The notes under the pieces are model-generated. The model searched no databases, had not been told where the DNA came from, and worked only from the letters and a program-made list of their open reading frames with translations. This document shows positions 17,985-26,900 of a stretch of DNA of 64,000 bases, one piece after another (the first letter of the stretch is position 1; each line of letters begins with the position of its first letter). This stretch comes from Escallonia rubra (taxonomy: Eukaryota; Streptophyta; Magnoliopsida; Escalloniales; Escalloniaceae), in NCBI GenBank assembly GCA_033065855.1, contig JAVXUO010002938.1, forward strand, positions 1 to 64,000, given 5' to 3'. A program made the position numbers and the translations under genes.

Positions 17985-20900
17985 ATGGCGATATCACCAT
18001 CAGTAGTGTTCGTGACAGCCCTCTTCTTTGTTTGTGAAGGTCGAGCTCAAACAACTAATGCTACAACCGATCTTTATGAAGGTGCTGTCTACTTCCTCCT
18101 TTTCTTCACAAACAAGCATGCAATTAATAACAGTATACAACTGTTCACATAGTCAGAAAAACAAAACATAACCTATCGGAGTTGGGAAACTGGTTATTTG
18201 TGGAGTTCCTGGAATATATATATATATATTCTTGGAACATCCACAGTTGATGGTAGTATGAATTTTTGAGGTGAGTATGTTTACATCAACGTTCCAGTGG
18301 ATATTGGTCGCGAAAAATTGACTTGTTCTTCCACGAAGATACTAGGAAAAACTTCTAAAGGGATTACGAAGTAGAACTCGCCTAGCAAGCTTAACTTGTG
18401 GCGGAAAGAGATAGAGGGAAGTTTCGAGTGTTAGGACGGGCGTGTGACGGGCTAAGTTGGAGTTTAACAAGTTTGATATAGTATGATTTAAAGTTTCTCC
18501 GTACTATATGGGTGCCACACCCACAATTAAGATTTGTCATTGTTGAGAATTAGCTTAATGCAACCGTCTTTGTATTAGAGAGTCGCGACTCTTTATTTCA
18601 AAAATCAGATCGGGAAATTAGAATCTATTTTACTCTGAAAAATAATTTAGTAAGCTCAAAAAGGTGTGATCGAGGTTCATTAGAAGTTATACTCTATAGA
18701 TACATTGGTTTAGTGATATCCTGGTAACGGTTGGGAGAAAAAATAAATTATAATCGTGATACATATGACGTGGCACAACCAATTAACGAGATGAGAAAAT
18801 AATCGAACCTTGACTCCTATGAGAATATCTCATTTCCATTAGAGATCACCCCACTCATTACCGTTAACCTCAAAACTTTGTGAGCAGTAGTGGTGGTTTG
18901 CCAATAACCCAGTGCCAAACTCAATGTGAGTTGGGACAAATATTAGCATAAACAGTGTCACACTTAATGTGTAGCCAACTCATGGCCTGCAATTTATTCT
19001 TGGCTTACTAAACCAAACCAAAAATCCAATTACAGTGAGAGCTTTGAATTCCATCTTTCAACATTGGAACATTTCGGCATCAAGTGAGTGGAACATAAGC
19101 GGAGAGCCCTGCAGTGGAGCTGCCATCGACTCGACGACCGTTGATGATGCCGATTTTAACCCGGCTATCAAATGCGACTGCTCTTACAACAATGCCTCCA
19201 CTTGCCACATTACTGCCCTGTAAGTGTCAACTCATTCATGGCTTCAATGCACCCCATCTGTTTGATGTATTGTCCAAGACACAAAGTGCAATGTTGACAA
19301 GATATGCATAATGTCTTCACGCGAGGCCACTTCGTCTGTCTTGCTCGGTTACGTGCTCTTATTGTTCGTCTTTTTCGGTATATGCCTATGGGTAGCATAT
19401 GCTTATTTTGACGCTAAATTCTGCAGTTTATTTTGTTGCTGTAGTCTAAGGAGAATTGAAAGAGACTAATAGTGTGTGAAAATTGACTTCCCCTGACAGA
19501 AAACGGGACATTTTTAATTGGTTTGCTTGTGGTCGTGTAAACGCGATGCAACTACTTAAAACTTGATAATGGTAGCAAGTTGATAGACTTTTTCAAGGTT
19601 GACTCGTGAAAGAAACGGATATGTCACTAGGCAATTGTCGAGCTGGACTAGCACACTCGCACTGTTGAGCTCAAAGTTACTCGTGATTAGTTCAATAGTC
19701 ACCAAACGAGCCAAAATCATGCTTCATTTGGAGCACGACAATATATAGTGCCAAGATTGAGCAAGCCCATAATGGCCTTGACTTGACTCGTTTATAGCCT
19801 CATAATGCCCTCATGGGAGGCACGTTCTGTTAATTTTTGAACCAGTTGATAGTCAGAACATGTTATGTTCTAGGACTGAATGGCTCTATTTTCCTGTCTA
19901 TACGTGCAGCTTTCCTCTCAGGGTTTCAACTTCATAATCAGATCTGAAACTTCTAGAACAATTCCTAACTGTTTGCGCTGGGGGCAAATTCACAATCAAT
20001 TTGTGTACCTGTGACACAATTGATTAACGGTGTGAGATCTTTTTTGCCCTTTGGGCCTGCGGACTTTACTAAAAACGGAAACTTTACTAAAAATAAAATA
20101 CTTAACAAACTTAAGAAAGATGTGCCCACAAAGACAAAGTAAACTTCTACAAAACACAGGAAATGTTGGTGTCACGCCCTAAGAAGCGACAACACATACG
20201 CTAACCTTCTTCCGAAGGTAGTCAGAGTGCGCTAGTTTGCATTTGAAATGAAAAAAAAACCACCCATGAAGTCCTTAAAGACACATATTAAATTCCTTCA
20301 TCATTACAAATCCAAACTTATAGGCACATATACACACCAAACTTCCCACTAACTCATAAACAAATGGTACATAACTACATAGCACACCTCACTCCTATTT
20401 ACAGGTGGACAAGGACTTACTATCCCTGATTCTCGGGCAGAGGGATACTCAAAGTTTTCCTCGCCAACGCCCTCGCCTATCTCTTCTTAATTTTCTCCAG
20501 TATCTAAAAGTAGAGATGAAAAAGGGGTTAGCAACAGTTAAGTAGAGCAAACATATGACCAACATAAACACTATCTTAATCGTAACGAGCGTGCATAAAC
20601 CAAACAAAGCATGATTATCTTCAACTTATGCATGGCATATGATAAAATGCAGCGAACGAGCAATTATTAACTCAAGCATAATACATATCATAACGACTCT
20701 AAGGAGCCCAAACCATAAGCTGAATGCTCAATCACTTACCATCCTTTCTTGATAAGACCCTAAATTGATCCTCAAAAGCTGAGCCGATCAAATTCAGTTT
20801 ATGAGTGATAAATTTAAACTTTACACAAGACTTCGCATATATTGACAGCATACGCGGCGCAACGTAACGCCCCTGGGAGGTAAACCTGCTGAGCAAGTTC

Positions 20901-23900: not shown

Positions 23901-26900
23901 ATTAACCATGAATTGGTTGCATCCATCTTCAAAATATTGTCTTATCTCAGCCATGTTTGGCATCAATTCATTTTCAATATTCAAAGAGTGACTATTGGTT
24001 TGTAACTTTTTATCCTCAACAAGTGTGGAAAGGAATAATTCCACTTTCTTCCTCATCCACCTTACTCTATGAATTAAAGCCAAGCATTCTTTTAATTCAT
24101 CCTGTACATCCTCTAAAAAAGATGGATGATCTACTCTCATCAAGGTTTTAATATAGTTCTCAAACCTATGTAATTCATTAGAGGTATCTACCAAAATCAT
24201 TAGTAGAATAGGCTGGATATGGTTTGCATAAATGCAATCCATTAGACCATACCAAAATTCCATGAAATCATCCACTGATTTTTGACCTCATATACAAGGA
24301 AAGAGACAATGGTTCAAAATTTCTAGGTAATAATGACGTCGAAGTACGGCATTTCATCAAATCTACCCAGAAATTGCCCTTAATTCATCAAATCGGGCCT
24401 GAAATTCCAAGAAATTACTTGGAAACATATTTTCAAATACCCTAAATTCTAGTAGTTGACATTTTCCACTTTCAGATTAAAAGGGTTCCATTGGGCGTGC
24501 CAATGTTTGTGCTGAGGGCAAATTCACAATGAATTTGTATACCTATGACACAATTTATTAAAGGTGTGAGATCTTTTTTGCTCCTTGGGCCTGGGGACTT
24601 GACCTTAGTTGCACAAAGCGGGGGCGGGGGCGGGAGCGGGAACGGGGGCGGGGGAGCGTAAGCACCAAGAAGAATCTGAGGTTGGGAGCGGCTGAATAAA
24701 TAAATGCGTAAAGAGTATTATCATTTGTTTAGTATAGTTTACATAGCCAGCAACAACAAACAAGGAGGCTTTAAGGACTTGAAGAAAGAGAGAAACAAGG
24801 AATTGAGTTGAAAAGGGCTTGATTTTCAGGTATTCTCTCACTTGTTCCATGCATTTCTATCCAGCTAACGGGATCGAGTTCCCATATTAGCTTGGAACGA
24901 GATCCCATGGAGCTCCTAACTTGGGATCGCAAAAGCGAGTTTCCAAGAGAGAAACGTCACCATATTAGGAGTTTCCTGCAACTAAGGACTTGACTAAGAA
25001 CAAAAACTTTTCTAAAAATAGAATACTTAATAAACTTAAGAAAGATGCGTCCACAAAGACAAAGCAAACTTTTACAAAATACAGGAAGTGTTGGAGGACA
25101 GGATTTCCTATCGATACCAGGTAAATCATGTAAATGTCTTGACTAAGATAGAGAAAAAGAAGAATTGATAGCATCCAAACTTTATTTCTTCAGGTCAAGT
25201 TTGATATGTGAATTTGATGGCCGTTTTTCTGTTGCCCTTCTCTTCCTTCTATACTTGCTTGCCATTTGGTTGAGTTGTCTCTTAATGATGATTCTGTCCT
25301 TCTATAGATAAATTGTAGAAAATAACTGTCACTAAAAAACAAACTACCCACTTTAAAAACAACTACTTCCACTCAGAAAATAACTACTCACTAATAAGTA
25401 ACCAACAACACTTATCCCTTATCAATAGGAACACATTTTCAGATGTTAGTTTCTTCCATGAGAAAATAACTTATGATTTGAGTTATTCATTATCTCCTTC
25501 AGAAATAATAATAAAAAGTAAATGCCATTTTTAGTGGTATTCAATTAAAGTGAAGTCATTAGTGAAAAAATATGTGTTGGTGCAAACACTAACTAAAGAG
25601 TATATTATAGTCTTCCACACTCATTTTTTGAGGAATTTTGAAAAGATCTATTAGCTTTGAAACTCAAGTCTGTCATGATCTCCTCTAAGTGACAGAAAAA
25701 TGCACTGTTGTTCAAGTTCAAAACCTTGTTTTATTACTCAGACATGTGTGGCTTCTTGATTATTTACTAATTAAGTATGTGTTCTTCATATTTTGCTTGG
25801 CAGAAAAGTTTATGATCTGGACATTACAGGTGTAATCCCTGATGAGCTATGGAATTTGACTTTTCTCAGAGATCTGTATGATTTATTTCTTTTATGTAGT
25901 ACTTTACTGGAGTAGTAATTTGTTCACGACTTATTATGGTCCATTTCTTAGATGCAAACTGCAGTTTCAGTGCTAACTTTTAAAAGCATATAGATGTGAC
26001 AGCCCACTTGTAGTTGGCTTACAGTTGGTGAGATTCCTTATCAGCTTCCTTTCTTTAGATGTTACTCAAATTTCTTTTAGATATTGCAGGAACCTAGCCC
26101 AAAACTACTTGAGTGGTTCTTTGCTTCCATCGGTTGGCAATCTAGCTAAATTGCAGTACTTGTAAGCCCATCTTTTTGTTTTGATTACGTAGCACTCTCT
26201 GGTCCCTCTTATCCTTGAATCTAAATTGGTTATGTTTTGAATATTATGCTATTCTGATTAATGTGATTAGGAGCCTTGGGATTAATTCATTATCAGGTTT
26301 GCTTCCGAAGGAACTTGGGAAACTTACAGACTTGAGGTCAATGTAAGTTATCCTTAACTTCATATATCTTTAAGGTACAACTTATAGCTTTTTTTATCTT
26401 TTCTAATTTACTGCGGGGCGCTTTTTCCATTTATGCTTATATGTGTGATGTTATTTACTTGCTAATATTGCAGCGCATTTGGCACAAATTCTTTCTACGG
26501 GCCTCTGCCATCTGAACTTGGGAACTTGACAAAGCTAGAACAACTGTAAGTGTAACATAATGTCATTCCACTTTGTGCTCATTTCATTTTGTTGTACTTT
26601 CATGATTGAGAAGTTTGCATTTACCATCCTATTACAAGATGGTGACATGTTTCAATTTCTTCCAATAAGTTATTACATTTATGGTTGTAGATGTACTGAA
26701 GTATAATGAGAAAAATACATACTATATGTGTGTGTGTGTTTGCGCGCACGCTGATATGCAGTAAAGGACGATATATTTCCGCCTACGGTGACAAAGATGC
26801 GAGGACAAATTAAGTTAGGATTTCAAACCAGCTCAATGGGAAGAATAAAATTCACAAGAAGGCCTATCGTCCTCGAGTCTATATATGATCGGCTTAAAAC

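Follow-up and report, generated by a model that had tools for sequence, protein, structure and literature searches.

Two later insertions, one in each long terminal repeat, record the order of nesting in a retroelement of a receptor-kinase intron in Escallonia rubra

Introduction

In plants, 1491 nested pairs of long terminal repeat (LTR) retrotransposons have been reported across 12 genomes (PMC6911290), and software such as REANNOTATE resolves the order in which such nests were assembled (PMC2672092). Here we analyse a nest of this kind in a 64,000-nucleotide stretch of the Escallonia rubra genome (contig JAVXUO010002938.1, positions 1 to 64,000; hereafter the window), in which an LTR element, referred to below as the host element, lies in intron 2 of a receptor-like kinase gene and is interrupted in one of its LTRs by a solo LTR and in the other by a miniature inverted-repeat transposable element (MITE). 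As in the nested LTR pairs described from plants (PMC6911290), an older element is interrupted by younger sequence that carries its own target-site duplications (TSDs), and the order of events can be read from the interruption and from LTR divergence. The Escallonia locus departs from those pairs in detail only: both of its inserts lie in LTRs, and one of the two is a MITE, of DNA-transposon type.

Results

Reciprocal empty sites in the two LTRs

Subtraction of each insert and of one copy of its TSD leaves both LTRs of the host element at 694 bp, and alignment of the two revealed that each is continuous where its partner is interrupted, as had been proposed from inspection of the sequence in the original prediction. 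In the partner LTR the sequences flanking each insert are collinear, which removes an objection that the same prediction had raised against itself, and the same continuity at both insert sites was found in two related LTRs from other contigs that were included in the alignment. When a retrotransposon integrates, a single template supplies both of its LTRs, and an insert found in one LTR only is therefore a later arrival. Because each of the two inserts sits in a single LTR, the conclusion that the host element came first and that both inserts followed is secure, and the predicted sequence of one host insertion and two independent later ones holds. The layout is silent on which of the two inserts preceded the other.

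The comparison of the LTRs gave 620 identities over 693 aligned positions (89.5%; Kimura two-parameter (K2P) distance 0.115). The 73 differences comprise 52 transitions and 21 transversions, and besides the inserts there are two 1-bp gaps. This alignment had been suggested in the original prediction with pieces that needed one correction, since 24504-24595 plus 24995-25588 sums to 686 bp instead of 694 bp; the first of these pieces should read 24504-24603.

Conversion between LTRs is reported to be frequent in plants, where 25% of LTR pairs show potential converted regions, and can distort LTR-based ages (PMC7251063), which is why conversion and the polarity of changes were considered here. 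No converted tract was seen between the two host LTRs, in which the longest run free of differences is 37 positions and not beyond chance (p 0.75). Gene conversion between them was rejected because their identical tracts are no longer than chance would give. Over 683 positions compared with two outgroup copies, 21 changes could be placed on the 3′ LTR and 23 on the 5′ LTR, while 27 stayed unresolved. At 1.3e-8 substitutions per site per year, a rate often used for plants and taken from grasses, the divergence would place the host insertion at about 4.4 million years ago, or at twice that age if the rate were halved.

Structure and coding capacity of the host element

The whole host element spans 19970-25588 on the minus strand and is bounded on both outer sides by the predicted duplication CTAAC (Table 1). 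Its LTRs are direct repeats that start with TG and end with CA. Stripped of its inserts the element measures 3,114 bp, of which the LTRs make up 45%, while the insertion as a whole, nested inserts included, comes to 5624 bp. On the minus strand a polypurine tract (PPT), AGGGGGGAAA, lies immediately before one LTR, and the internal region opens with TTGGCACGCCCAATGGAACCC, a stretch resembling a primer-binding site (PBS), right after the other. From the positions of these two sequences the element reads leftward, with 24504-25588 as its 5′ LTR and 19970-22777 as its 3′ LTR. The computed chance of the duplications is about 1e-3 for CTAAC, 1e-3 for GTTGG around the solo LTR and 1.5e-5 for the 8-bp duplication around the MITE. 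The original prediction had named a longer repeat that includes CTAAC as a possible source of error; a search confined to the window (E 1e-5) found nothing outside the flanks (17500-19969 and 25589-32700) that matches either of them.

With E values up to 1 allowed, Pfam recognised no domain in three open frames from the internal region (two on the minus strand, one on the plus strand), and stops break all three minus-strand reading frames of this region. The gag-pol domains that define an autonomous LTR retrotransposon were thus absent from the frames tested. The absence of Pfam matches, together with the broken frames, indicates that the host element is non-autonomous or decayed. A 178-aa open frame at 23751-24287 (minus strand), also without a Pfam match, was considered as a gene and rejected as a coding relic: its relatives at four other loci, with stretches 54-78% identical, each contain a stop or a split of the frame.

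A search of the genome with a 594-bp piece of the host LTR returned 43 matches from the best 40 of 731 candidates, two of them the LTRs of the window itself; the best of the other copies among these is 82% identical. A pair of LTRs, ends that resemble a PBS and a PPT, a TSD of 5 bp and the lack of recognisable coding domains in the frames tested are features that the host element shares with the non-autonomous elements known as terminal-repeat retrotransposons in miniature (TRIMs) and large retrotransposon derivatives (LARDs). TRIMs are smaller than about 3.1 kb and LARDs are larger, which puts the host element, at about 3.1 kb without its inserts, between the two in size.

A solo LTR in the 3′ LTR

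The insert in the 3′ LTR was originally labelled a solo LTR flanked by GTTGG, and other copies of its family in the genome back this label. With the 2109-bp insert as query, 51 matches were obtained from the best 40 of 430 candidates, one being the insert itself. Among the 50 others, 10 cover positions 1-2109 and have the same ends as the insert, the best of these being 91% identical, and the relatives as a whole range from 81 to 93% identity, plus one short piece at 75%. Two LTRs of this family stand on contig C353 with their starts 8,675 bp apart, and a 2-kb piece from between them encodes the Pfam domains RVT_1 (reverse transcriptase), RT_RNaseH (RNase H) and Integrase_H2C2 (integrase, zinc-binding) on the minus strand, in the order typical of Ty3/gypsy; the family assignment draws on this one LTR pair and on the single 2-kb piece that was read between its members. 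When the minus strand is read, the left LTR of the pair has a purine tract before it and the PBS-like stretch TGGTATCAGAGC after it, and a degenerate version of that stretch comes after the right LTR. The insert in the window is a single LTR with complete ends and its own TSD, and it lacks an internal region. This lone position between TSDs, taken with the full-length family copies that flank gypsy domains, supports its identification as a solo LTR of a Ty3/gypsy family.

Two further features of this family were observed. An LTR at C353:82857-84981 (L046, L043) lies between a PBS-like stretch and a purine tract, as though two tandem elements had it in common. Within the solo LTR of the window, at 21075-21440, a sequence of about 180 bp is repeated in direct orientation with 81% identity. 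The frame at 20732-21004 (minus strand), the only frame of the insert sent to Pfam, gave no match.

A hAT-like MITE in the 5′ LTR

The insert in the 5′ LTR, predicted to be a MITE with TSD GACTTGAC, likewise has its label backed by copies elsewhere in the genome. A search of the genome with its 383 bp was scored for the best 40 of 1038 candidates, the window copy included; the other 39 are 95-98% identical to it, and 37 of the 40 matches cover positions 1-383. All eight of these copies that were inspected, again counting that of the window, are flanked by a perfect 8-bp TSD, and the terminal inverted repeat (TIR) CTTAGTTGCA is intact at both ends in seven of them, the copy L037 having one change. 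These observations support the reading of the insert as a high-copy hAT-like MITE, the superfamily being assigned on account of the 8-bp TSD. The insert shares an 8-bp TSD, a short TIR, a short body and high copy number with the hAT-derived plant MITEs BniHAT-1 and BniHAT-2 (PMC7385995), a likeness in general features.

The window MITE lies at K2P distances of 0.013-0.024 from the seven other copies inspected and has three private changes in 383 positions. Since the divergence accumulated per host LTR is about 0.058, these distances indicate that the MITE arrived late. Its closeness to its relatives also suggests that it is more recent than the solo LTR.

Gene context

By a GT-AG reading made by eye and with predicted exon limits, intron 2 of the receptor-like kinase gene is 6584 bp long and would measure 960 bp without the 5624-bp insertion. 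The original prediction had given about 955 bp, slightly short by this reading. The gene lies on the plus strand, where Pfam recognises a malectin domain at 34074-34508 and a piece of a kinase domain at 37173-37451; in our reading of the translations, these domains would belong to one gene together with the exons that flank the insertion, and those exons appear to carry leucine-rich repeats. Both retroelements, the host element and the solo LTR, are antisense to it. No paralogue of the kinase gene was found inside the window, as judged by the absence of a match to its flanks at E 1e-5. Just past exon 2 the intron contains a 67-aa open frame (19266-19469, plus strand) with a stretch that looks hydrophobic by eye and with no Pfam match at E 0.01.

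Table 1. Positions of the nested insertion and of the intron that contains it, numbered along the window
Feature	Position	Strand	Basis
Intron 2 of the receptor-kinase gene	19220-25803	+	Visual reading of the GT-AG limits; downstream malectin and kinase domains
Outer TSD CTAAC, left copy	19965-19969		Direct reading and alignment
Host-element 3′ LTR, solo LTR inside	19970-22777	-	694 bp once the insert and a GTTGG copy are removed; oriented by the PPT-like and PBS-like stretches
TSD GTTGG of the solo LTR, left copy	20165-20169		Direct reading and alignment
Solo LTR, 2109 bp, Ty3/gypsy family (supported)	20170-22278	- (family sense)	Other genomic copies
TSD GTTGG of the solo LTR, right copy	22279-22283		Direct reading and alignment
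Host-element internal region, 1726 bp	22778-24503	-	PPT-like AGGGGGGAAA adjoins the 3′ LTR; PBS-like TTGGCACGCCCAATGGAACCC adjoins the 5′ LTR
Host-element 5′ LTR, MITE inside	24504-25588	-	694 bp after removal of the insert and one TSD copy
TSD GACTTGAC of the MITE, left copy	24596-24603		Direct reading and alignment
hAT-like MITE (supported), 383 bp, TIR CTTAGTTGCA/TGCAACTAAG	24604-24986	+ (strand arbitrary)	Genomic copies
TSD GACTTGAC of the MITE, right copy	24987-24994		Direct reading and alignment
Outer TSD CTAAC, right copy	25589-25593		Direct reading and alignment

Other features of the window

Elsewhere in the window a pectinesterase gene is duplicated (56280-58568 and 61772-64000, 89.6% identical), the second copy being cut by the window end. 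A piece of a LINE-like reverse transcriptase (RVT_1, zf-RVT; LINE, long interspersed nuclear element) occupies 51822-53732 on the minus strand and sits between two segments (50301-51053 and 59088-59815) that align with one another at 78%. An Rfam scan of the window at gathering thresholds returned nothing.

A head-to-tail array of a relative of the host element

Outside the window, on contig C1822, copies of an element related to the host element follow one another head to tail over about 51 kb (C1822:234350-285642; L009 351 to L014 1643). This relative is 71-78% identical to the window LTR, and its unit of about 2408 bp consists of an LTR of 691 bp and an internal region of 1717 bp. We counted 16 LTR copies in the array, some of them truncated or carrying interruptions, and in addition a short remnant. 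Identity to the query unit is 91-96% for most pieces and 82-85% for the outermost ones. At least three later insertions interrupt the array, with joins at which 5-7 unit bases overlap in the manner of a TSD. The array region also includes 21 copies of a 19-bp repeat, CGAAGCCAAGACTTTTAGT (L011 3844-4252).

Tandemly arrayed TRIMs have been found in 35 of 43 plant genomes (PMC4717578), and among described tandem LTR-retrotransposon structures (PMC11899658) there are counterparts both to the head-to-tail succession of LTRs and internal regions on C1822 and to the shared LTR on C353. Arrays of Cassandra are reported to contain at least 12 LTRs (PMC7215508), compared with the 16 copies counted here. 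The array is thus of a known kind, though it is long and more striking than the nesting in the window. It is possible, though we hold it as a tentative idea only, that the host-element family tends to form head-to-tail arrays, in which case the C1822 array might show an LTR element on its way to becoming a satellite, and dispersed single copies like that of the window might be the seed form.

Discussion

Ordinary sequential transposition almost certainly explains the whole structure. A non-autonomous LTR retrotransposon with 694-bp LTRs and a 1726-bp internal region would have been integrated into intron 2 by integrase, antisense to the receptor-like kinase gene and with a 5-bp TSD. Later a Ty3/gypsy element would have entered its 3′ LTR, duplicating GTTGG, and recombination between the LTRs of the newcomer would have removed the internal region and one LTR to leave the 2109-bp solo LTR. 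Independently, the hAT-like MITE would have moved into the 5′ LTR by cut-and-paste, with an 8-bp TSD. We infer the enzymes of these insertions and, from the spacing on C353, a full-length beginning of about 10.8 kb for what is now the solo LTR. The antisense orientation may have helped the intron to tolerate its load. Two inserts placed at random would fall one in each LTR with a probability of about 0.10, and such an arrangement is unsurprising because the LTRs make up so large a share of the host element; the nesting pattern is ordinary in plant genomes and amounts to a textbook case.

The order of events would be reversed for one insert if it had already been present in the host element at integration and its copy in the other LTR had been lost by precise excision or gene conversion. 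hAT elements can excise, and LTR conversion is reported as frequent in plants, as described above, yet the uninterrupted partner LTR shows no trace of a second TSD copy or of a footprint, the identical tracts between the LTRs are not longer than chance, and the two related LTRs in the alignment lack inserts at these places; we regard such a loss as highly improbable. It is barely credible that the 2109-bp insert is an unrelated or non-LTR sequence with a 5-bp flank repeated by chance. The insert offers no coding evidence of its own, as illustrated by the frame without a Pfam match, but its 10 full-length relatives have the same ends, and the two on C353 flank gypsy domains and have purine-rich and PBS-like stretches at their edges, which refutes the idea as far as it was tested. 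Retention of the three-layer insertion for regulation of the kinase gene, beyond mere tolerance and for example through intron-mediated control or the spreading of heterochromatin, would fit its location, an intron near the start of a receptor-kinase gene, and the antisense orientation of both retroelements. We consider it very unlikely, as the changes in the LTRs fit neutral decay, being balanced between the two (21 versus 23) and leaving no long unchanged tract.

Several points count against sequential transposition as set out above. The ages depend on the substitution rate from grasses. No tRNA matching the PBS-like TTGGCACGCCCAATGGAACCC of the host element was identified, ARAGORN having found no tRNA in the window and the genome not having been searched for one. 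The C353 LTR pair belongs to a composite in which an LTR is shared and not to a clean single element, and among the family copies examined there is none in which a pair of LTRs with matching TSDs encloses a complete internal region. The position of the solo LTR is also less typical, in that LTRs are described as not commonly targeted by nested LTR elements in the survey of plant genomes (PMC6911290).

The locus provides a clean worked example of how insertion order can be read from reciprocal empty sites, together with a reliable annotation of 5.6 kb of intron, and opens no new question by itself. The C1822 array of its relative could serve for asking how LTR elements become satellites.

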